Positions 16,529-36,237 of a DNA stretch of 36,237 nt are shown piece by piece. This DNA is from Brevinema andersonii. GTDB lineage: Bacteria; Spirochaetota; Brevinematia; Brevinematales; Brevinemataceae. The stretch is from contig NZ_FOKY01000010.1 in the NCBI RefSeq assembly GCF_900112165.1, positions 1 through 36,237 of the forward strand, in the 5' to 3' direction. The notes below the pieces were generated by a model. That model made no database searches. It had not been told where the DNA came from and saw nothing but the letters and a program-made list of their open reading frames with translations. The first letter of the stretch is position 1. Each line of letters opens with the position of its first letter. The position numbers were made by a program, and so were the translations under genes.

Positions 16529-17008
16529 ATGCGTTTACTCACTCTCCCTTTGATGGTTTTGGGATTTCTAGCCATGACGTCTTGCAAATTTTTTCAAGAC
16601 TATAATGGCAACGGTAGTGGTATAGTCTTGGATGGGAATGCTTTAACGTTTATTGCAAACTTCAAAAAACAAGATCTTTATGTCACTTCTATGAATCAAG
16701 ACTTGAGCAATCAAGCAATTATTGACATATTTACAGGAGATATCATTCTCAATTCCGCCAGTTCAAGTGCATACGGTGGAAATCTCAAGTTTGTACGCTC
16801 ACTGAGCGGTACAAAAGCTGTGTACCGTATTATCAGTGGTAGCAGCAGTGGGAAATATGCTCTATTACATTATGATCATTTAAACAGATCCTCTCATAGT
16901 GAGGCTGTCATTCTCTCTAGTTCTTTTGTAGACGATGACTCACAATTATCAGAATCCACCGCAATAACTCAAGGTTCCGGTGATCTTTACGGTAAGGTAT
17001 CAAGTTAG
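16529..17008 (+). CDS. Small lipoprotein resembling one module of the giant lipoprotein
   Basis: 159 aa with a signal peptide and lipobox LAMTSC (lipidated Cys19). The mature part has no named family. Its segment LKFVRSLSGTKAVYRI followed by GSSSGKYALLHY resembles, in order and spacing, the repeated core of the 2974-aa lipoprotein at 24211-33135 (for example YKVRMISDLSETKGVIQF then QQYGLLEI, and GIFKL-type strands followed by GKYV). This suggests a single-module relative, but it is an eye alignment, not a search. The gene is monocistronic, with consensus promoter, AGGAGG RBS 8 bp upstream and a strong terminator, so probably an abundant surface or periplasmic lipoprotein. Confidence 0.75.
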   Translation: MRLLTLPLMVLGFLAMTSCKFFQDYNGNGSGIVLDGNALTFIANFKKQDLYVTSMNQDLSNQAIIDIFTGDIILNSASSSAYGGNLKFVRSLSGTKAVYRIISGSSSGKYALLHYDHLNRSSHSEAVILSSSFVDDDSQLSESTAITQGSGDLYGKVSS

Positions 17009-19983: not shown

Positions 19984-21680
19984 TTATACGTGTTGCAATA
20001 TATGTACAGGAGACCCATTATTAATAGCAATTATACCCTCTTTTATAGCATCCTTTAGATTGCCATTAATATTTGAAAGCACATGAGATATAACAATAGT
20101 CCCAGGCTCTATATCAAAAGTATTGTTTTCATCAGCTATGATTTTTATTACTTCTAAGTTATCCCGTAAGTTTTGTTCTCCTGGTCCTTTAGTACGATTT
20201 GCTAATGCTAATACTAATCTTCTTTGTATTTGTTCATTCGTATCAAAACTGAAAAAAACTATTAATATATTTTTTTCTAGGAACGGTATATTCTGGATCT
20301 AATTGATAACTTCCTTGTTCAAAATTTAATTCAGCAGTCTTTTTATTATTCCAATTAATAAATTGTGTTGAGCCATTATTTTGAGCTATCTCAATATCAG
20401 GAATATATTCACTATTACGACTGATTGTTTTTCCATGAGATTCCAACACGGGTACTAACCCTTTTTCACGCAAAACTTGCTTAGTATATAAGCTAAACAA
20501 AGGTTCAGAAACTTTATTTTGCATAATAATCGACCAATCAACTAAATCGGTATCGAAATTGTTACTATTTGTCTCAGTCTGCATAGTTTCGTTAGTATTT
20601 GACTTCACTTCTTGAGTAAAATAATTTTTTACACCCGCTAAGAAAGCTTCCGGACCCATATTAAACCAAGCTAAATGTAAAAGCCCATAATTACTCATAA
20701 TACCAGTTGCATCGACATACAATACAGTATTATTCTCAAAGCCTTTACGTATCAATTCTTGATAATATTCCGCAGGAGTCACTGCAACAATATAAGCAGG
20801 ATCATCCTGCAGATAAGTATGTATTCCTGGATTTTCTTGAGCTTTACCTGATTGAATTTCTAAATCTATTTTACTTAATCGTATTACCGCATCCTTAAAC
20901 ATATTAAATAATCTCAGACTAAGATTTTCTTTTATATGCGACCATCCATTTGCTATGATTTGTTGCATTTGCTTGAATGTTACACGCCCAGGTATTGTAA
21001 TATATAATTTATTATCTACAATAGAACTATCTGTGCTTAACAACGAAGAATTAATTACTACTATTTCACCAATATGATTATCTCCAAAAATTCCTTGAAA
21101 ATATTGATAAATCTTATCAATATCAGCTGGTGTCATATTAAAATTCATGCCTTTATATAGAGTGATAGGCACCATACCTTGAAATTTTTCTAAAGTATAT
21201 TTTATATTCAACAGTTTGGGATTATCAGACTATGTAAAATAATAGGACGATATATCATTCGTTCTGTAAGGAAAAATAAGAATATTTGATACTCCTTCTG
21301 CAAGACTAAAATGGTAATTCAAATCAGGCTGCTTTTTAATCTTAGGAAACCAATTCTCAGTGAGATAGCCAGCAGTACCTGCACCAGAGAGAATAAGAGA
21401 ATAAGAAAAACGAACAGAATACTCCCTACCAGCAGCTTCTTCATCCCCAACTTTAATTCCTATACGAATTTGACCATTACCAAAATTAAGATTTTCTTGA
21501 TTTTGCACAGAAAGGATTCTTCCCCGCCCCGGTAATGTTATTTCAGTTGCTTCTCCCGTATACAAAACATCTATTTTAATCTCATTAGCTGAAAGTGGAA
21601 TATATTGTAGTTGAAAATTGCCGGCAAATACAGGGATCTAAAAAAATAAACACAGTAGTGCTTATAAATAAAAATCTCAT
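19984..21680 (-). pseudogene. Broken secreted-protein gene, possibly M1/M61-like
   Basis: A single ancestral gene can be traced through at least three lesions. It starts at an ATG (21680) with a good RBS (GGAGG) and a signal peptide, but that frame closes at 21585; the continuing frame (NFQLQYIPLSANEIKID) has a TAG at 21638-21640. After a long open run, an in-frame TAG at 21230-21232 interrupts it and the same frame continues. At a T7 tract (20252-20258) a one-base loss would join on about 88 more residues ending at 19984. The part NYGLLHLAWFNMGPEAFLAG resembles the end of M1/M61 peptidase domains, but no HExxH is present, only NGWSH in a comparable place. It lies 71 bp after manA, on the same strand. 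Confidence 0.75.
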
Positions 21681-24166: not shown

Positions 24167-24194
24167 AAAAAGCCCCCTTAAAAGGAGGCTTTTT
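24167..24194 (-). terminator. Intrinsic terminator of the giant lipoprotein gene
   Basis: The arms 24167-24179 and 24182-24194 form a GC-cored stem with one mismatch, flanked by A5 on one side and T5 on the other. On the minus strand it begins 17 bp past the stop codon and ends in a T-run, insulating the flavoprotein operon. Confidence 0.75.
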
Positions 24195-24210: not shown

Positions 24211-27200
24211 TTAAGGAATCACATTAAGACCAGATTCAAAGTTGTTTGCTGGCGCTGCTGACCATGACGCATTAACACCAGCTTCATCACTACCTAAAAC
24301 CATTTTTATTCTAGATCCATCAGCTGTTCCTGTTTTTTTATTAAAGCGGATAAATTTACCTCCATACTGTCCATAGCCGATCAATTTGAATACGACTCCG
24401 TTCGATTCAGGATTATCAAATCTATATACTAATTCCAATTGATATGGAATATGCTGACCTTGAGGATCTCCAGGACCTTGAATGCCTATTAACGTACCAT
24501 ACTGTGCCGTACTACTCTCATATTGAACCCACATACCTCCGATTGGTGCACCATCTAAATAAGGTCTTCCGCCCCATCTACTATTTGCTCTCAAATAATT
24601 TTCAACATCAACTGTTCCTGTACCTTCTATTGGCCTGTAATTCCAATGTGTTAATGCTTCCCTTTGAGATAGTGCATCCTGTAATGTATTTCCATATCCA
24701 ATTTTGGCAGTATAAGAATTGATACCTGTACCTACTCGAATAGCTACAAATTTATCTTTATGAGTATTTGGAAACGCATTAGTGACACGCTCAAGCATTA
24801 GGATAGTATCATAAGGACCATTATATTGATAAGGTACCGGTACATATCTATCAAAATTTCCTTGCCAAGCACCACTAGTATTAACTTGTTGTACTCTGAG
24901 TGATAAATTATCTCTCCAAGCACCTCCCGGAGCAGTATTATGTGCATATGCTGCAAAATTGGTTGACATATATGCTGTTCCTGCTTGTATAGCAGCGCTA
25001 GCGTTCACTGGCACCCATTGCCTATTAGGAACCATATTAGTTAAAGTGGCCATACTAAGAGTTGCTTTTGATATATTTCTCCATAAAGGATGAGTTAGCG
25101 CGAATTGTTGATTCGTAGCAATATCTGCAGCCAAACTTTCAGTAGCAGAATAGTTCATTGAAACAAAATTATCGCGTCTATGGGGCTCCGTACTCATTTT
25201 GAAGTAGGAATATGCTGCAACACCACCACCACCTGTTCCATAAGAATTCAAATAAAGTCCCGTTTCTAACTTCGAAACATCATTTTTATAGATTTCAAAA
25301 TAATATTCACTTGTAGTGATAGGACTTCCTGAACCAAAACTGTTACCTTTTCTAATAGAAATTTTTCGTTGAGGAACATCAAATGTCCATTCATCTATAT
25401 CACGAGCATCATTGTAACCGCCTCGAGTGATACTAATTGTTGGTGATTGCTTTATCATTTCAAGAAGCACATCATCGGATGCATATTGTCGTTTTCTTAC
25501 AAACTTCGCTTGTTGCCAACGACGTGCTGTAAATCCTGTAGCAATCTTGTTATTACTATAATCATTAGTCATCGCCACCATTGTATCACCCATACCCATA
25601 CGCAACGACACTACATCATTAGATTCCCAAATACCAACAACAAATAACACATACTTACCATCCCAAGGCTTATGAGAAGATGTTCCTTTCAAGTAATACG
25701 TTGCTTCTCCAGTCGTTGTATTATTGGAAACCTGGATCATATTATAAGTATGAGAAGCACTCGAAGAACCATTAGCAGAGATCACAGACATAACTACATT
25801 TTCAGCTGATACCCCACTAACAGCAGATATTTTAGTAATTGAAAATTCATCAGAAGATGTCGGCACATATACTTTTTTATCTGTCAAAGAAACAAAAGGT
25901 TGCTGCAATACTATTTTATCTAATAATCCTTGGTCTTGAGGAATTCCATTTTTATTTCTATGTGTATTTTCAGTCATTGGTGCAGCATCCACGACATCCT
26001 CTGTATCTCCAAACACAAAGCTCACAGTTTGCTGATTCGCTGTTTCATCAAGATGCTTCAGACGTGCAAATTTATTAGCTAAGGTACCATAACCACGTAG
26101 AATAAACTTGCCATCTGTAAGACTATCTTGAATCATTTCAATACCATAAGAATTTGGAATTGGTACTCCATTTCTATATTCTGTAATAATTACTTGCAAA
26201 TCACCACTATTATTTTGGAACTGCATATTGGTAGTATTCTGAGGATCATGTAATCCTCTACTGTCGAGTCCAGCTAATAATCCGTATCCAATAGCTTTTG
26301 TAATAAGCTGATGCCCAGGCATAATACTTGATTGTTCTTTCAAGTTATCTGTAGTCAAAGCAGCATGAGATGCTTTTGCTGCGGCAATAGTTGTTCCTAC
26401 AGCAAAACGGACATTGGCATTATTTCGGGTTAATTTGACGAATTTATAATTATAAACTCCGTAACCTCTTAATTGGAAAATTCCATCAGTATCACTAGTT
26501 TTTTCAATCATTGTATAGGCATATGTTTCTGTATTGGTCTGCATACCATTGCCACTAATATAATAAATATTTAATGATCTAGCAGTAGGATTAAAAATCC
26601 AGTTTGTTGTATTATTGGCATTATAAGCAGAACCTTGAGTTTGAACCCATGTTTTTCCAGTCGCAAAAAGTAGTGTGATCAAATTGTTATCTATATTCAA
26701 AACACTATTATCAATATAATTCCAATAATTTAAAACTGCTAAATTATCTAAAGCTTCTTGTGCAGTGACTCCTGATGCTACTTTTAATCGTTTTTCATCA
26801 GCATCTACACCCCTTCGTATCGCAAGGAAAGTATTCGTCAAAGGTGAATTATCCGCACCATCTCGCCGTTCCAACATCACAACAGCATCATTTGCACCTA
26901 AATCCTGCATGATTACAGAGACATACTGCTGTTTATTATTAATAGTATCAGTCACAAGGGCATCACCTACTTCAATATGTAGATTATCTCTGACCGTAGG
27001 ATCTGCAGAGCCAGAACCCACAGCACCCATATTGGAATTAATAGAAACCACCTTATAACCATAACCAGCTATACGTTGACCGTCAACATCAATAGGACGA
27101 TAATCTATGTCAGCACCCATGTTAGTTAAAATACGTGTTGAAAGTATAGCAATATCTCTATTTCTCATAATAGGCAATTTCCAATGTTCTGCACCGTTAC

Positions 27201-30200
27201 TTGCACTATCAACATCTGCAGCATAATTCATTTTTACAAAATATTTCTTTCTGAATTCTGGACGTATATCAAGAATCATATGGAAATATTGAGCTGGAAC
27301 CGTAGTCATAATGGATGGATACGCATTGACTTTAATTCTTGTATGTAGTGATGTAGTGTTATTGTAATCCATCATAAAGTATGCTTCTCTTTCCGTTCGC
27401 GATCCACGCTCATTAATTGTTAATTTTCTATGAGTAGGATCAAATGTCCAAGATTCATTTTCATTAGGATGATAGTAACCACCTCGTACTGCCGCAATCG
27501 TTTTATTATCTTTTACTAGCAATTCTAAAACATCAGAAGGTATATCAACGACATCACGCCGTACCCATTTAACATTTTCATAAGCTCTATAAGTATAACC
27601 TGATACTGTATGGTTATCATTATAATCACTCTGTGCTGCAGCCATTGTATCACCCATACCCATTCTAATTTCTCCCATCTTATTGCCAACTGCAGTAGAT
27701 GTCAAATAAATATATTTACCATGCCATGGATGAGTTGCAGTAGTTCCATCAGATTTCAGATTGAACCAAGCAGATGTATCCGTAGTATTCGAAACCAGTA
27801 ACAAATAGTAATTATGTGATAATGTTGCTTTATTTGTGTCCAAAGAAATAACATTCATCGTTCTAGTGGCTTCATCAAATTTGATGGTATCAGTATGAAC
27901 GGGCACATATACTTTGTTACTGGTAAGCGAAACAAATTCAACTGCTTCTTGAGCTTTGGTAATAAAATTAAGTGCACTTGGAACAGTTGTTTTTTCTCTT
28001 ACAGTATATTTATTTCCTAAAGCTGCTAATTTATTTTTAACATCAACTAAGCTTGTTCCTTCTACCAACTGAGCTTTATCTGGTGCTCCGGAACCCGAAT
28101 TAAATTTCAATCCATAAAATTTATTATGATCAGGTGATCCCTGATTATCCAGTCTAAAATAACCTTCATCAGTAGAAGTATCTTCTAACATTTCAATATC
28201 ATAGCGATATTGTGCAGGAACATCTCGAATAAGTGTCGTTACCTGTACAGACGGATTAAGTGCACTAGGATCATTGTTGAATACGAATTCTTTCGTATTT
28301 CTAGGATCATACAATTCATTATCATCAAGGCTTACTAAAGTTGCTCTAGCTTGAGCAGTAGTAATAACTTGAGCCCCTAATAGTAAAGATTTTCGTTCAA
28401 AAATATTCCAAAGATCTTGAGCATTTGTTGCAGCCAAAGCTTGTTTTGATTCTTCGGTATCTGTCCCAAATGCTATACGCGCTCTATTTGACTCACTTGT
28501 TCCTGCTGTGCCTAATTCTCCTGCAACAAACATATCAGCAAACGATCCAAAGCCTGATAACTTAAATACACCTTTTAATGCGGATTCATCTTCTATCATC
28601 GTGTATCCGTAAACAAATTCTAATGTTGTCGTTACACTGCCTGTTGTTGTAATATATTGCATTTTCAATGTTTGATTATCTCGTATAAACATCAAATTAG
28701 TAGAATTTGCGGATGTATATAAAGGATTATCTCCTGCCCCTACAACTGGATTGTCTCTGTAGGAGATCCATATATGCGATCCTCTACTAACAGCCTCTTG
28801 AACAATACGATCATCAGCTACAGCCATATTTTTGTCCATGTAGTTCCAGATTGTCTGCTCATTCAACTTATTCTGAGCATCCAACGGCGTATCTCCAATA
28901 CCTACTTTCAATAATCGATCATTTACCGCAGTACCAAGCTCAATAGCCATATATTTATTTGTATACTCAGCATCATTGCCGTTATAAAGCTGGAATATTC
29001 CACGATAATCCGAAACATCCTGGTGCATCTTATGCTGGAATGTAATAGGCCCTTTCGCGCCTGTACCAACTTTCTGAATCACAACATTTGTCAATTTATT
29101 ATTCGCCGTATCAGCACTAATTTTCAACGAAGTATAATTGTTATTATCATACTTCAACGTGCCTGCTGTCGACTTGTCTTCCAAACTACGCCATTCAGCA
29201 ACTTTTGCAGCATTCGCAATCGCACGGTTAGACAGTTCTGCCAAACTTTTTTCCCGTAAATTCCAGTTGTGCGCCGCGTTCATTTTCTGTGCTTCCGACT
29301 TCAAATGTGCAATACGCGTAGCTTCATCGCCTACAGACGTGGTTAGCAACAATCCGTTCGCATCCCTGTCATTCACACCTGTACCAAACCCTAAATATGC
29401 CATGTGACCATTGTACATCGTATCAGAAGCTGTCGAACCAGCCAATAAGAATATACCTTCCGTAGCCGATATCGACTCTTTCATACCAATACGGTAATTT
29501 TCAGTCTTAATCACGCTTCCATTCGTACTTACAATTCGCACCGTCTTCATTGCTGCATCAAATGCCCATTGTTCTACCTGTTCACTATCCCAGTAATAGA
29601 GATTAGAAGCTAATTTTGTCCATATCTTATCCCCAGCAGTTGCAATTACTCTAACATCAATAGCTGTCGACGTTCTATCTTGAAAATTCCATTGATTTGG
29701 TTGACCATTCAATGCTGTAAATGCAGTTTCCACATCAGATTTATTATCAGCAGTAACAAATCTAACCTTTTTAGGTGTGCTACCACTTTCTACTTTCATT
29801 TTAACAAATTTCTTATGTAGTTTAGCTGTGTCATTATTTTCAAAAGACTTCAAGTATAATATTGCTTCTGCTTCGTCTGTAACATTAACAGGAGCAGTAG
29901 TAGTTCTCTCAACAATAATATTATATCGATGAGAACGAGTACCTGTTGCATCCACATCAGAAATGTTAACAGTCATATCGCTGGATCTAAATCGCAGTTC
30001 TTGAGTATTATCTGCATTCCAGATCCCTTTATCATCAACCATTACTAAAGTATCACCAATTGCTCCCGATGCCGCATCACCATCTGCACGCTGGATCGCA
30101 TTTTTAGGAAAATCCAATGCAGACACTTCATAATAGTTTGCTGCAGCAGTGGTTAAAGCCGTTACTGTATCACCATAAGTATCACTCATAATGATTTTAC

Positions 30201-33135
30201 TATATTTAAAGGCTTTACTATCTAGTATATGACTCAATCTTTCTACACCTAAATATCTCGTATTCCAAGCACCATCACCTGTAAGTCTTACAATAGTAGT
30301 ATGTTTTTGAGGCGATACAACTTCCTCTTGCGACATCACTTCATATTCATAAGTAGAACTATTTGTAATGTCTCGATTTATTAAATCAACTTTAATTGTT
30401 TTCGTAGTAGTATCAAACGTAAAATTAGTTGTATTATGATAATCATATAATAAATGATCATAAGTAGTTCCAGAAGATTCTAGTGCTAAATCAACAGCTC
30501 CCCAAGGCCCCAAATTATTATTGAAGTTGGTATCAGGAACCAATCTTTCTTCTTTTAGATCATGAGTCCATTGATTAGCTATTTTCAATTTTTGCAATTC
30601 ACTTTCTGCATCAGCCAAACTATCAGCATTTGTAATAATCAAATGGGTACCAGGTACACTTCCTGAAGCTTCTTGAACTCTAAAACCAGCAAATTTACCA
30701 GCCAAACTACCAGTACCTAAGTATTTAAAAATCGCTTCTGTACTATTGATAGCTCGAACAATTTGAATAGGATGAGTTTCTTTCTTTCGTGTATTATCAG
30801 CAGTAATAACAGTAATTTCAACTTGTAAAGGGTCAGCACTAAAAATAAATTCTTCAGTATCATAAGGTAAATAAGAACCAGTACTTGCAGCTGCAGGTGC
30901 TTGTAAAGCAACATATTTGTGCCCTTTATTCTTAGCATTATCAACAGCCGCTTCAATAGTAATAGCAGAAAGAGGTGCATTATCTAAGGTATGATAATTA
31001 TTTTTTACTGAAGGCTTATTTGCCTTTGCCTCATCTATGGTATCACCTATACCAATATAAGCTTTACTTGCGTTAACTGCTGTACCTGTAAGTACATACA
31101 TAAATTTATCTTGAAAAGTAGTGTTCAAAATTAATGCATTATTTGGAGTTGTCACATTTGGATAATCTTGGTCAATTGGGGTTGGATTTTTCAATTTAAA
31201 TCCTCCCTCTACTGTTCCTAAATCAATAGCCATTTCTACTTCATAACTAGCTCCATTTGTAGTTACGTTACCACCATTATTGGAAATTTCCATTACAACT
31301 GCACTCATAGCATCCGGATCAAACCACCATACTTCTGTTTCTGTTTCTGTATAATATCCCGATGATGATAATTTTATCCAAGGATTAATACTCGCTAGAG
31401 TTTTGATAATACGATTACCACTAGGAACAGCTGATTGTTCATAAAGATTCCATACTACACGTTTTTCGAGCAGTTCTTCAGCTTTAGCCTGACTCTCATT
31501 AATTTCAAGCATAGCACGCACATTATCAACACCGGAACCTAATTTCACAGCCAAAACATAATTTTCAAAAGCCTTACTATCAGTATCAGCAGTCAATCCC
31601 GGAATAGTCTCTGTAGTAGTCAGAAGCTTAAATGATCCTCGATTATCCGAAAAATTATTAAGCATTTTTATCTTATAAGTAGAAGTCTTTGGTGTAGTAT
31701 TCGTCATGATTTTTGCTTGTACTAGTAATTTTTCGGAATCAAATGTCCAGTTTGTTGTGTTAGTCATAGAATAAATACCTGAATCCTGAACACCAACCCA
31801 AGATTTACCTCGTCTTTGCATTTCAATAACAACCCGATGAGGCTGCTGTGCAATAACTTTATCCTGAACCGGAGCCTTCACAGCTCCTGCTGCAGTAAGA
31901 TCATTTTCTGACATTGCTAGAACAAGATACCCAGCTAAACTAGCTTTGTTAGTAATCTCTAATAATCCATATTGTTGATTTAAAACACCACGGCCAGTAA
32001 ACTGAATAACTCCTTTAGTTTCAGATAAATCAGAAATCATTCTTACTTTATAAGCACTTACATTAGTAATTTTATCATACACTGTGATTACTTCTGCTGT
32101 CATAGAATCAAGATCAAAGTCGTACTGGGTAGTATTTTCCCAATCATATGCTGCTTGAATTATTATGGGAGTTGTAGAACTGCCAATAGGATTTGCTGAA
32201 TATGGACTCAGTGTCACTATGGGATTTCCTGCAACTAAAGATAAAACTCTATGAGGAATATCAGCTGTTTTTTCACTTTCCCAATCATAATCAGCAGAAC
32301 GCTTTTGAAGATGTGATAATACACCGTCCAAAGTAGATTCGTGCGCGAATCTCATTTGCAATTTTTCTAATTGAGTATTGGTATGGTATTCTATACCAAA
32401 AAATTTTCCATCTTGGAGAGAATAAACCTCAATAGAGGGAGGAAAAAGCTGTACACCTGTAACAGTCACAGAACCTAATTCTGTTTTAGTAGGAGCATGC
32501 GGATTTGCAGGGTCAGGCTGTACATTAGTAAAATAGATTTTTTCAGGAACTGTACCACTTGCATCTGTTTTAAATACAGCATTAGTAGTAGTTTGAACAT
32601 GATATTTCAAATCGTTTTCATTCAATCGAACAATCACTTCATTATTTGTAAAAGAATTAAAAGCCCGTCCAACTAAAGGGTAGCTTGCATATTGCCAGTA
32701 TACAATCTCACGAGATTGTTCGAGCAATCCCTCCCTGTCATCACCTAACGCTAATTTCGCATAAGAACCACCACCATTGGTAATAGCAGTGATACCTACG
32801 TATTTACCGCCATAACTGCCAGAACCATGCAAACGATACAAACCTTCAAGTGGAGATACATCCTCTATAATTTCAACTGCGTATTTTTCAGTACTAGTAT
32901 AATGTGTTTTTGCTCTGCGTTCAAATTGCGCAACTAATAAATCTCCGTCAAACTCAAACACTGTATAATCGTCACAATTAAAAGAGCCATCTGAATTAAT
33001 AGAATACAATGGAACTTTTTCGAATGTATCAATCACCCGCCTCTCATTGTATTTTAAGTTGAAAGCCTCTTTTTTGGTCAAGGAACACCCCGACAACAAA
33101 ATCAAAGCAAACACTTTAAGAAACATTCTTGTCAT
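24211..33135 (-). CDS. Giant modular repeat lipoprotein (2974 aa)
   Basis: One uninterrupted reading frame of 8.9 kb. The signal peptide MTRMFLKVFALILLSGC carries a lipobox (LLSGC, Cys17), so it should be lipid-anchored in the envelope. The mature chain is about 21 diverged copies of a roughly 140-residue module. Each has a W/F-TFD-like strand after an 'NTTN' turn, a Y-x-[VIM]-x-M-[IL]-x-D-x-S segment, G-x-[FY]-x-L, an xGK[FY]V strand, then a 'GxGDT' turn and a short helix. Its only cysteines are Cys17 and Cys54. The last two 680-690-residue stretches (about 1570-2250 and 2260-2945) repeat the same order of modules. I know no named family. It is probably a long surface rod or adhesin (inference). 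RBS is GGGGAG; no clear promoter seen. Confidence 0.85.
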   Translation of the reverse strand: MTRMFLKVFALILLSGCSLTKKEAFNLKYNERRVIDTFEKVPLYSINSDGSFNCDDYTVFEFDGDLLVAQFERRAKTHYTSTEKYAVEIIEDVSPLEGLYRLHGSGSYGGKYVGITAITNGGGSYAKLALGDDREGLLEQSREIVYWQYASYPLVGRAFNSFTNNEVIVRLNENDLKYHVQTTTNAVFKTDASGTVPEKIYFTNVQPDPANPHAPTKTELGSVTVTGVQLFPPSIEVYSLQDGKFFGIEYHTNTQLEKLQMRFAHESTLDGVLSHLQKRSADYDWESEKTADIPHRVLSLVAGNPIVTLSPYSANPIGSSTTPIIIQAAYDWENTTQYDFDLDSMTAEVITVYDKITNVSAYKVRMISDLSETKGVIQFTGRGVLNQQYGLLEITNKASLAGYLVLAMSENDLTAAGAVKAPVQDKVIAQQPHRVVIEMQRRGKSWVGVQDSGIYSMTNTTNWTFDSEKLLVQAKIMTNTTPKTSTYKIKMLNNFSDNRGSFKLLTTTETIPGLTADTDSKAFENYVLAVKLGSGVDNVRAMLEINESQAKAEELLEKRVVWNLYEQSAVPSGNRIIKTLASINPWIKLSSSGYYTETETEVWWFDPDAMSAVVMEISNNGGNVTTNGASYEVEMAIDLGTVEGGFKLKNPTPIDQDYPNVTTPNNALILNTTFQDKFMYVLTGTAVNASKAYIGIGDTIDEAKANKPSVKNNYHTLDNAPLSAITIEAAVDNAKNKGHKYVALQAPAAASTGSYLPYDTEEFIFSADPLQVEITVITADNTRKKETHPIQIVRAINSTEAIFKYLGTGSLAGKFAGFRVQEASGSVPGTHLIITNADSLADAESELQKLKIANQWTHDLKEERLVPDTNFNNNLGPWGAVDLALESSGTTYDHLLYDYHNTTNFTFDTTTKTIKVDLINRDITNSSTYEYEVMSQEEVVSPQKHTTIVRLTGDGAWNTRYLGVERLSHILDSKAFKYSKIIMSDTYGDTVTALTTAAANYYEVSALDFPKNAIQRADGDAASGAIGDTLVMVDDKGIWNADNTQELRFRSSDMTVNISDVDATGTRSHRYNIIVERTTTAPVNVTDEAEAILYLKSFENNDTAKLHKKFVKMKVESGSTPKKVRFVTADNKSDVETAFTALNGQPNQWNFQDRTSTAIDVRVIATAGDKIWTKLASNLYYWDSEQVEQWAFDAAMKTVRIVSTNGSVIKTENYRIGMKESISATEGIFLLAGSTASDTMYNGHMAYLGFGTGVNDRDANGLLLTTSVGDEATRIAHLKSEAQKMNAAHNWNLREKSLAELSNRAIANAAKVAEWRSLEDKSTAGTLKYDNNNYTSLKISADTANNKLTNVVIQKVGTGAKGPITFQHKMHQDVSDYRGIFQLYNGNDAEYTNKYMAIELGTAVNDRLLKVGIGDTPLDAQNKLNEQTIWNYMDKNMAVADDRIVQEAVSRGSHIWISYRDNPVVGAGDNPLYTSANSTNLMFIRDNQTLKMQYITTTGSVTTTLEFVYGYTMIEDESALKGVFKLSGFGSFADMFVAGELGTAGTSESNRARIAFGTDTEESKQALAATNAQDLWNIFERKSLLLGAQVITTAQARATLVSLDDNELYDPRNTKEFVFNNDPSALNPSVQVTTLIRDVPAQYRYDIEMLEDTSTDEGYFRLDNQGSPDHNKFYGLKFNSGSGAPDKAQLVEGTSLVDVKNKLAALGNKYTVREKTTVPSALNFITKAQEAVEFVSLTSNKVYVPVHTDTIKFDEATRTMNVISLDTNKATLSHNYYLLLVSNTTDTSAWFNLKSDGTTATHPWHGKYIYLTSTAVGNKMGEIRMGMGDTMAAAQSDYNDNHTVSGYTYRAYENVKWVRRDVVDIPSDVLELLVKDNKTIAAVRGGYYHPNENESWTFDPTHRKLTINERGSRTEREAYFMMDYNNTTSLHTRIKVNAYPSIMTTVPAQYFHMILDIRPEFRKKYFVKMNYAADVDSASNGAEHWKLPIMRNRDIAILSTRILTNMGADIDYRPIDVDGQRIAGYGYKVVSINSNMGAVGSGSADPTVRDNLHIEVGDALVTDTINNKQQYVSVIMQDLGANDAVVMLERRDGADNSPLTNTFLAIRRGVDADEKRLKVASGVTAQEALDNLAVLNYWNYIDNSVLNIDNNLITLLFATGKTWVQTQGSAYNANNTTNWIFNPTARSLNIYYISGNGMQTNTETYAYTMIEKTSDTDGIFQLRGYGVYNYKFVKLTRNNANVRFAVGTTIAAAKASHAALTTDNLKEQSSIMPGHQLITKAIGYGLLAGLDSRGLHDPQNTTNMQFQNNSGDLQVIITEYRNGVPIPNSYGIEMIQDSLTDGKFILRGYGTLANKFARLKHLDETANQQTVSFVFGDTEDVVDAAPMTENTHRNKNGIPQDQGLLDKIVLQQPFVSLTDKKVYVPTSSDEFSITKISAVSGVSAENVVMSVISANGSSSASHTYNMIQVSNNTTTGEATYYLKGTSSHKPWDGKYVLFVVGIWESNDVVSLRMGMGDTMVAMTNDYSNNKIATGFTARRWQQAKFVRKRQYASDDVLLEMIKQSPTISITRGGYNDARDIDEWTFDVPQRKISIRKGNSFGSGSPITTSEYYFEIYKNDVSKLETGLYLNSYGTGGGGVAAYSYFKMSTEPHRRDNFVSMNYSATESLAADIATNQQFALTHPLWRNISKATLSMATLTNMVPNRQWVPVNASAAIQAGTAYMSTNFAAYAHNTAPGGAWRDNLSLRVQQVNTSGAWQGNFDRYVPVPYQYNGPYDTILMLERVTNAFPNTHKDKFVAIRVGTGINSYTAKIGYGNTLQDALSQREALTHWNYRPIEGTGTVDVENYLRANSRWGGRPYLDGAPIGGMWVQYESSTAQYGTLIGIQGPGDPQGQHIPYQLELVYRFDNPESNGVVFKLIGYGQYGGKFIRFNKKTGTADGSRIKMVLGSDEAGVNASWSAAPANNFESGLNVIP
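24310..28370 (-). repeat. Higher-order repeat inside the giant gene (2 × ~2.05 kb)
   Basis: The segments 26300-28370 and 24310-26300 encode the same ordered set of five modules. Aligned landmarks: VSLTSNKVYVP vs VSLTDKKVYVP (2040 bp apart); MGMGDTMAAAQSDY vs MGMGDTMVAMTNDY; ILTNMGADI vs TLTNMVPNR; RDNLHIEV vs RDNLSLRV; and VMLERRDG...FLAIRRGV vs LMLERVTN...FVAIRVGT (2079 bp apart). Nucleotide identity is only partial, so the duplication is not recent. Boundaries are approximate. Confidence 0.75.
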
Positions 33136-33786
33136 AACAAAACTCCCCTATTTTCATAAAGAAATAATAAAATTTCTGTTTACCTATCTGAAATTTCAAT
33201 CATCCTCAATATATATCGGAACCTTTTAATTATATATTATTAAAAAAAGAAAGTCAACTGTAAAGATATTATTTTATTAAATATCATATTTTCCCACAAA
33301 TTATATGCAATATGCACTATTTATGCAAGAAAAATTCCATATAGTATATGAGTATAAATTTCTGTACTCGATTCTAATCAATAAATATTTTTACACAACA
33401 TATTTAAAAAATTCCTTTAAAAACTTTTCTATCTATTCTCAAAAAGAAACTACTTCAAAACAAATCTGATAATATATTATACAATATAAAATTAAAGACA
33501 TAATTGTTAAGAGCAGTTTGATGTGAGACCCGATGTCATGCGAAGCGTAAAATGGCATTTGTACAAGGATAAATAAAACAAGGTTTTGCAGGCAAAAATA
33601 AACATGTCCTCGCGGACATTGGAGATTTAATAATTAAATTTTGATTAAATCTATGTTTAGTACTGGAAAAATAAGGATTTTAAGAGAAAATAAAAACCGA
33701 TCCGTAAACGTGAATGTGGACATTAAAAAACAGTAATTACAGTGTCGAAAAAACGTTTAGAACTAATTAAATTCAAGATTTGAATT
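33136..33786. other. Long intergenic stretch with a less AT-rich island
   Basis: No intact gene. The first 370 bases are very AT-rich and include the leader of the giant lipoprotein gene. Between about 33510 and 33635 the base composition rises; that part holds a 6-bp hairpin ATGTCC-TCGC-GGACAT (33604-33619) and a short open + frame reading QGFAGKNKHVLADIGDLIIK. It could be a remnant of a mobile element or a small RNA; I cannot decide. Confidence 0.4.
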
Positions 33787-34441
33787 CTATTTATTGTACA
33801 AAAAGGAAACTGTACGAAAATATAAATGGTCCGAATCATCAATATAAGAAAAAAGATAAGCAGGATTGCTTTGACCTTGTTCTACCATATTATCAATATT
33901 AATAATAAATTGCTTTACATTATTTTGTTGAGATGTTAAGGTTTTATTTTTATATTTTTGAACCCATTCTTGCCCTTGAGCAGATGTATTGTTTTCTCGC
34001 CACACATATAAGGTTGTGTAAGTGGTATAAACATCGGGATTATTTGAATCAAAGGACACATCGTTGGATGAGGACCATGGGGATACACCACTGGTCCCTT
34101 GATTATTAGCAAAAACTAACAAAGTGGAGCCTTTTAACTCAAAGTCTACAACCGTTTTGAATGGAATAAATCACTTTATTTTGACCTTTTGCTACATCAC
34201 AAAATTTATACACTACCACTGATCCTCTATTCCAGTTTCCAATATTATCAAAAGTATGATCACCAGCAGTCTTTCCTCTCACCAACTGGATCCACTCATC
34301 TCTGGTAGTTTGAGCAGAAGGATCTGGGAGTGTTCCGGCATTTTCAGATTCAGGAGGTGTTATAGTATTCCCGTTGGCCAATTCTTTCTGTACCGCACAA
34401 GCAGCTGTTAAAAAAAATCCTAAAAATATCAATTTCTTCAT
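33787..34441 (-). pseudogene. Frameshifted small lipoprotein gene
   Basis: The 5' part (34441 to 34139) encodes MKKLIFLGFFLTAACAVQK, a signal peptide with lipobox LTAAC (Cys15), then a Pro/Glu-rich linker and DEWIQLVRGKTAGDHTFDN, and stops at GCRL. The next frame reads on without a break from VDFELKGSTLLVFANNQGTS to a stop at 33787. Removing one G in AACGGTTGTAGAC (near 34150) would join them into one protein of about 217 aa. The family is not recognised; the second half has YTTYTTLYVWRENNTS and a Gln/Asn-rich region. Promoter and RBS (AAGGA) are intact, so the lesion is recent, phase-variable or a sequencing error. Confidence 0.75.
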
Positions 34442-34559: not shown

Positions 34560-36066
34560 TTAGTTAACTGTGATAGGAAGGATATTAAATGTTTTTCCAT
34601 TCAATATCTCTTCTGCCATTAATATTTGTACTCTAGGATATCCCAATTTCCCAAATGAGCCGGCATACAAAGAATAATGACCTGCTTTTCTTGCCTCGGT
34701 AAGCATTTGGTTGGTAGATTTCGCATAACAAATCAAGCCTGCCATCTCCGCTTTATTATTTTCCATAGTTCCAACCAAATCACGAATATAAGAGGCTTGG
34801 AGTTTTTTGTAGCTTTTGACTGATAAGATCATCTTTCCCAATTTTTTTGTCATCTTTTTGTCATCTTTATAGAAATAAATAGAGCCGTCAATTCCTCCGT
34901 CCCAGCTTTTTTTAGTAGAAGAGAATCCCCTAACTTTTTCGACAGCCCAATATTAGAATTGATAACGCCCTTCATTTTTACTTTTTTCACACTTTGAAAT
35001 TAATTCTTTGACCTGCTCGATAGTAACAGGCATATCATCAGTGGTATAATCCTTGGTTTTTATTAAGAAAGAATATTTTTCTTTCATCGTTCTTCCATAA
35101 GTGTTATCGACAGCATACATATGTCTACCCCAATTCATTTACGATTAAGATTTTGAGCTGCACCAAGCGTCGTGCCGCATCCCCAGAATGGATCCAACAC
35201 TACATCTACTTCTTTTTGTGCAGGCTTTAATAATCCTTTCCAAATAATGCTATAAGTTTCTGCGTCTGATAACCAAGCCGTTCTTGTGATACAGGATTAA
35301 TAAATTGCATATTCCAAACATAGCCTATTATAGGTGCTTTAATCTCCACATCAACAATTTTATCATACTTAGATAAATCTACTTTTGATTGCTTTAATTT
35401 TCCTTTATCATAAATTAGCAGTTTTTTAATACCAAAATCAACGACTGTATGGTATCCTTTCAATATGGTGTACCTAATTCAAAATTTTCCTCTCTAGGAA
35501 GATCAAAATAATTTGTATTCCCTTTTCCATACCAGAAAATAATATCATGCATCCTAGGAAAATGATATTTTGCATTTCGTAAAAACCTATTGTAACCCCA
35601 AACAATCTCATTCCGAAAATTTTATGACCGAAAATTCCATCTAAAATAATCTTAATATAATGGCTAGCTGCGGGAGCACAGTGCAGAAATAAGCTTCCCC
35701 ATCTTTCAGCTTTGCCTTCATCACCCATAATCTTTGAGCCATAAATACGAGATAAGATAAAATCTTAGGATTTTGATATCTCAATACATTAACCCATGTG
35801 CTCCAAAAATCGGAAAATTGTTGATTTCCATCGTTAATAAGTGTTTCATTAAATTCCTGGATATCATCTTCTTTTTCTTGCGTAAGCCCCCAAACATCAC
35901 AAAAAGCAATTGCTTCTTCCAGTACAGGAAGTTCCGTATCAGTCGAGTAGATACGGTTATAGATTCTATTAGAGTTAAAAGAAGGATCAAGATAGATGAG
36001 ATCTGCAGTGTTTTGCTCCGCAGGGCTGTGGAAAGAAGTTATACTTATGCATGGATGAGAAAACAA
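34560..36066 (-). pseudogene. Decayed site-specific DNA methyltransferase
   Basis: The pieces, in different frames, follow one known architecture: NTADLIYLDPSFNSNR (motif IV region, with DPPF changed to DPSF), LRYQNPKILSYLVFMAQR, GSLFLHCAPAASHYIKII, FRNEIVWGYNRFLRN, QERLGYQTQKLIAL, VVLDPFWGCGTTLGAAQNLNRK (motif I), then a C-terminal endonuclease-like domain, SWDGGIDGSIYFYKDDKK to GYPRVQILMAEEILNGK. This is an N4/N6-adenine or cytosine amino-methyltransferase. Lesions: frameshifts near 35700, 35610, 35465 and 35245, a TGA replacing the Trp of RKWIG (35135-35137), probably a frameshift just after it, and an in-frame TAA at 34953-34955. The 5' end has no proper start and runs into the HTH gene on the other strand. 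Not functional as read. Confidence 0.88.
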
Positions 36067-36237
36067 TAGAAAAGATCAACATTGCAAAAGAATTGCACGC
36101 CAAAGGATACAATGGGAAAGAAATCTCGGAACGCATGGGCGTCTCGGAAGCGGCGGTATCGGTTTGTCGCACAAAAAGCAAAGCATTAGGCATCGAGTGG
36201 AAATATCAAGACGGAGCCTATGCATCAGTGACGTCAT
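36051..36237 (+). CDS. HTH DNA-binding protein, partial (phage/terminase-like)
   Basis: Starts at ATG 36051 and is still open at the window end (62 codons). It reads IAKELHAKGYNGKEISERMG then VSEAAVSVCRTKSKALGIEW, a helix-turn-helix of the kind found in phage terminase small subunits and transposase/resolvase N-termini. GGAAAGAAG precedes the ATG at a slightly long distance. Its codons (CGC, GGC, GTC, TCG, GCG) are clearly GC-richer than the neighbouring genes, suggesting recent arrival. Its first bases overlap the 5' end of the broken methyltransferase on the opposite strand, as at an integration or deletion junction. Product class is uncertain because most of the gene is missing. Confidence 0.6.
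   Translation, partial: MDEKTIEKINIAKELHAKGYNGKEISERMGVSEAAVSVCRTKSKALGIEWKYQDGAYASVTS

Follow-up and report, generated by a model that had tools for sequence, protein, structure and literature searches.

A giant lipoprotein gene of Brevinema andersonii built of about 21 diverged modules of a family that appears confined to the Brevinemataceae

The giant gene and its surroundings

The window analysed here, a stretch of 36,237 nucleotides from Brevinema andersonii, carries on its minus strand a gene for a giant lipoprotein of 2974 residues (24211-33135; computed mass 329 kDa, pI 5.6). The frame opens with an ATG at 33135 and runs without interruption to the stop at 24211, as an earlier note on this DNA had claimed, although that note did not give the strand. 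The protein starts with MTRMFLKVFALILLSGC, a lipoprotein signal in which residues 1-17 (33085-33135, minus strand) make up a predicted type II signal peptide whose lipobox, LLSGC, places Cys17 at position +1. This Cys is invariant in an alignment of all five giant proteins described below, and the only other Cys among the 2974 residues is Cys54. The lipobox at Cys17 and the restriction of Cys to two residues within the first 54, both read from the translation in the earlier note, are thus accurate.

The start codon is preceded by a ribosome-binding site, AGGGGAG, and some 95 nt before the ATG lies a putative sigma-70 promoter (TTGACT-17-TATAAT, 33229-33257, minus strand). It matches 11 of 12 consensus positions, but promoter-like sites in this AT-rich gap are no more frequent than expected by chance (5 seen vs. 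5.5 expected). Putative terminators on the minus strand are found upstream of the gene at 33604-33619 (1 seen vs. 0.1 expected) and 24 nt past its stop codon at 24173-24187 (1 seen vs. 0.2 expected). As terminator-like hairpins are present on both sides and the upstream intergenic gap is about 650 nt long, the giant gene is probably transcribed alone.

The same strand holds several other frames that deserve mention. At 33787-34441 a small lipoprotein (MKKLIFLGFFLTAACAVQ...) without Pfam match appears to be divided between two ORFs that are not in the same frame. The short overlapping ORFs in several frames at 34560-36193 look like a decayed gene; the pieces have no Pfam match, and one of them contains a stretch, DPSFNSNRIYN, resembling DNA methyltransferases. 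Adjacent ORFs of 322 and 111 aa at 20243-21565, both starting with TTG and without Pfam match, are possibly one broken gene.

An array of diverged modules

When the protein is cut into fragments of 150 residues, these match elsewhere in the same protein with E-values down to 2.8e-26 (BLAST), a result that is independent of any module profile. A profile HMM grown by iteration from four seed copies detects 20 modules of about 135 residues that score 21-110 bits, the training set being the same proteins that were scored; in 50 shuffles of the protein the profile never exceeded 6.4 bits. The copies therefore align with each other well above background. Residues 142-282 are too degenerate to score, yet they have the length of a module and lie between modules in the homologues. 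With this stretch added on account of its spacing and collinearity, a fair count is about 21 modules of roughly 140 residues each, which agrees with the number and spacing that had been proposed. A 159-aa lipoprotein at 16529-17008, considered as a lone module, was rejected, since its 5.9 bits fall inside the range of the shuffles.

The array covers residues 25-2963 (24247-33063, minus strand). Modules 1 to 7 span residues 25-141, 142-282 (the degenerate copy), 283-421, 423-559, 562-711, 713-851 and 877-999; modules 8 to 14 span 1000-1144, 1149-1280, 1291-1428, 1430-1572, 1576-1708, 1711-1843 and 1856-1984; and modules 15 to 21 span 1990-2137, 2138-2262, 2264-2391, 2392-2530, 2545-2678, 2685-2830 and 2873-2963. 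The linkers are very short, many adjacent modules being 0-4 residues apart.

Across 98 modules, the best conserved profile columns are a Y (88%) and the F of strand 2 (81%), accompanied by G-x-F-x-L-x-G, K-[FY] and, at the end, G-D-T with an A behind it. The repeat had initially been described by the motif Y-x-x-x-M-x-x-D-x-S / G-x-F-x-L / GK-[FY]-V / GxGDT. The repeats are real and the core columns of this motif are conserved, but its strict form is rare: YxxxMxx[D/E]xS occurs 3 times in the giant protein (shuffle mean 0.04) and GxGDT 4 times (shuffle mean 0.11), so that the motif is best taken as a loose summary.

Within the array a larger unit can be discerned. BLAST matches at a constant offset of about 690 residues, together with the best-match pairs of modules (12/17, 13/18 and 14/19), delimit two blocks of five modules, at residues 1430-2137 (26725-28848, minus strand) and 2138-2830 (24646-26724, minus strand), which are diverged copies of each other; for example, residues 1734-1873 match 2414-2561 with 36% identity (E 4e-24). 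An intact paralogue of 2297 aa is encoded on another contig of the same genome, C9. Its first ten modules pair with the first ten of the window protein, and the best matches of its modules 11-15 are in the second block and in the module at the C-terminus. The paralogue thus holds one block only, and the two genes differ by a whole block that was either gained or lost.

Distribution, relatives and divergence

A search for the module in a phylum-wide sample of 296 genomes and in 18 genomes of the class found it only in four genomes of the family Brevinemataceae, namely that of the window and three of a sister genus. Elsewhere in these two sets it was absent, barring one weak hit in spirochaete G156 (E 4e-4), which concerns a different repetitive protein (L050:4002-9944, 1980 aa) with many repeats that are Ig-like by eye, and which is likely due to chance. 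A scan of genome contigs with the single protein as query gave no match, neither did any plasmid or phage record, and sequence searches against Pfam, NCBIfam and PHROGs returned nothing usable. Pfam had no match in the full protein, and no Ig-like family was among the matches of 57 single modules. The best hit among PDB sequences was an aminopeptidase at E 0.16, and the literature searched held no published account of this domain family. These results are in line with two predictions of the earlier note, that the module would lack a Pfam family and would be restricted to one lineage. Giant multi-domain lipoproteins of surface type are a kind already known; what appears to be new is the domain family, which appears confined to the Brevinemataceae within the searches made.

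The giant proteins in the four genomes are 2297-4186 aa long, and between 15 and 23 modules were detected in them. A single giant gene is present in each sister genome, encoding 3580, about 3992 (pieced together from two contigs with a 46-residue overlap) or 4186 aa, and in all three it adjoins a pair of genes for phoU and a GT4 glycosyltransferase in the pst neighbourhood, with a different order at this locus in G2. In B. andersonii the phoU-GT4 site has no giant gene, which indicates that the gene was moved or lost there. In the 1.5-Mb genome of this species two members of the giant family are intact and at least two are broken. Decayed copies with many stops are located at L010:7276-16000 (contig C2) and L011:1258-5416 (contig C13), and beside the latter a small ORF at 487-765 of C13 looks transposase-like by eye. 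Two glycosyltransferases with a DXD sugar-binding region (PF04488; L009:3507-5384) immediately precede the paralogous giant gene.

The presence of intact and broken members side by side could suggest antigenic variation, with the decayed copies on other contigs supplying cassettes to the gene that is expressed. However, the longest stretch of DNA identical to the window gene is 20 nt in the C9 paralogue and 14-16 nt in the decayed copies, which disfavours gene conversion from pseudogenes; at the protein level the decayed copies show just 35-53% identity, and they contain many stops, and the sister genomes have a single giant copy each. I consider this explanation very improbable.

The order of the modules is old. 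When G3 is compared with G1, all 23 detected G3 modules match best the G1 module at the same position, so the array has not been homogenised and each position evolves independently. Over its length the giant protein has 45% amino acid identity between these sister species and a dN/dS of 0.57, as against 75-91% identity and a dN/dS of 0.04-0.16 for the nearby phoU, GT4, ATP-PPase and pstB; all these ratios are rough, as dS is high (0.7-2.0). The rate of evolution of the giant protein is thus about five times that of the neighbouring ones. Such divergence fits a protein that faces a changing environment, but a dN/dS of 0.57 would equally be expected from relaxed constraint, and two paralogues in B. 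andersonii have in fact decayed. On the other hand, frames of 2300-4200 codons have remained open with the core residues preserved, so that the giant is not free of selection.

The five giants are also poor in Cys, with 8 in 17,029 residues (5 of the 8 being the lipobox Cys), compared with a content of 0.9% among nine proteins encoded in the window, a depletion of about 20-fold. Taken together, the lipidation signal, the depletion of Cys and the rapid evolution suggest that the protein is exported and probably located at the surface.

Predicted fold and proposed role

An AlphaFold2 model of one module (residues 2128-2266; 26338-26754, minus strand), for which 46 aligned copies were used, is confident (pLDDT 87.8, pTM 0.76) and consists of a helix, a meander of seven strands and a second helix. 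Three modules in tandem (residues 1426-1852; 27580-28860, minus strand) were modelled from an alignment of only 14 rows, built from non-overlapping module triplets, and repeat the helix-meander-helix pattern three times over (pLDDT 77.2). The repeating β-fold that had been anticipated is therefore recovered in both models.

The lipocalin or calycin fold is an eight-stranded antiparallel up-and-down beta-barrel, with a G-x-W motif (SCR1) at its first strand. Among the 50 top, weak Foldseek hits of the single module in the PDB, 23 are by name lipocalin or fatty-acid-binding-type barrels, but none of the PDB matches reaches E <= 1e-3, and viral structures yielded no significant match either. The best PDB hit is the Bacillus subtilis lipoprotein YxeF (2joz), with E 0.21, TM 0.45 and a probability of 0.97 over 91 columns at 14% identity. 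For YxeF a calycin fold has been published (PMC3367933); it is a single domain, in contrast to the multi-module giant of Brevinema, and the match is not confident. For the tandem model Foldseek gave a nominal match to TbpB (E 3.8e-4), which was rejected because its TM is only 0.16, and with this sole nominal hit no confident match to a named family, such as would have spoken against a new one, appeared. Several modules have K-x-WV or similar, but W stays below 33% at the first-strand columns of the 98 modules, so that the lipocalin motif does not form a conserved column, and neither Pfam, PDB sequences nor Foldseek against the PDB gave a significant lipocalin or calycin match. A calycin-like fold is thus the leading hypothesis for the module rather than an assignment to that group, as the resemblance of the model lies below significance.

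If the resemblance is genuine, each module could be a working lipocalin-like cup, and the array would capture many small ligands, either hydrophobic or metal chelates, so as to scavenge them or to blunt host defence. The weak fold matches of the models repeatedly include lipocalin, OBP, FABP and siderocalin structures, and individual divergence of modules in a kept order is what one would expect if the ligand differs per cup. However, these matches are not significant, the conserved columns (Y, F, G-x-F-x-L) look structural with no conserved polar pocket evident, and another spirochaete lipoprotein that is lipocalin-like, Tp0751, lacks a working pocket (PMC12183334). I regard such a ligand-capturing array as unlikely. 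A somewhat better, though still doubtful, possibility is a surface rod of some 20-30 tandem calycin-type barrels, specific to the Brevinemataceae, in which each barrel is conserved in position and has its own rapidly evolving binding face.

The reading I favour, to which I give a probability of about 0.55, is a probably surface-exposed, extended rod of lineage-specific, calycin-like beta-domains on a lipid anchor, for contact with host or mucus. The lipid-modified N-terminal Cys would anchor the giant protein in the membrane, from which about 21 small beta-domains, arranged head to tail with short linkers, would project as a rod, most likely pointing outward from the outer membrane. The rod shape is suggested by the abutting modules and by the tandem model, at a pTM of 0.61. 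As the module surfaces vary freely and the core is kept, the rod probably meets the host or mucosal environment, where it could serve adhesion or ligand capture; that it may be a surface fibre or adhesin had been suggested in the earlier note, by analogy with giant repeat surface proteins. A fish-gut Brevinema has been reported to carry genes for the degradation and use of mucin (PMC11092275), which makes mucus a plausible partner. On the other side, a salmonid Brevinema was not seen on the gut epithelium by FISH, for which the authors cite either probe access or no adhesion (PMC11092275).

Many spirochaete lipoproteins are periplasmic, as stated for Treponema pallidum (PMC7521688), and the giant might instead span or space the periplasm without being displayed outside. 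The lipoprotein signal is compatible with this, and the depletion of Cys would suit any exported protein. However, a range of 15 to 23 detected modules among the homologues is odd for a fixed width, the divergence is much faster than that of the neighbours and unlike that of conserved envelope scaffolds, and no known peptidoglycan-binding domain was found in Pfam; a structural role in the periplasm therefore seems rather improbable.

As to known systems, the closest functional analogues of the proposed surface rod are LigA and LigB of Leptospira, which are likewise spirochaete surface lipoproteins with many tandem beta-domains and short linkers, LigA having 13 Ig-like repeats (PMC12183334). 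However, the Lig repeats are Ig-like (Big) domains of about 90 aa, while the Brevinema modules are about 135 aa long, are flanked by helices and match nothing in Pfam (a Big-domain profile matched neither the full protein nor any of 57 modules), and the Brevinema arrays are longer, with more diverged copies. Tp0751 of T. pallidum, also a lipoprotein, has a lipocalin fold of non-canonical type and is reported to bind extracellular matrix (PMC5040251, PMC7521688), although its surface role is disputed (PMC7521688). It resembles the giant in being a spirochaete lipoprotein with a lipocalin-like beta-barrel, as suggested for the Brevinema module too, but has one such domain against about 21; the likeness is one of description, as Tp0751 is absent from the Foldseek top 50 of the single module. 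The giant extracellular proteins of Apilactobacillus kunkeei (3,000-8,000 aa, PMC12863079) are similar, again by description, in being very large repetitive surface proteins of a host-associated organism with a genome of about 1.5 Mb; this species, however, is Gram-positive, and there is no evidence of homology.

Brevinema-type spirochaetes are common associates of the fish gut whose surface is little known, and the module family provides both a lineage marker and an obvious candidate for a surface protein. As an apparently new domain family, it is accessible, since the structure of a single module should be easy to obtain. Unlike many repeat adhesins, the giant keeps very diverged modules in a frozen order without homogenisation, and this makes the question whether each module has its own job directly testable.

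The modules are not restricted to the giants. In all four genomes a second type of protein combines about three modules with a C-terminal region that has weak propeller-type matches (BNR, sortilin, Kelch), encoded at L052:4930-7242 (B. andersonii, contig C2), L051:4528-6861, L058 and L059. In both genomes checked its gene lies near purA, and the B. andersonii protein of this type is a lipoprotein as well.
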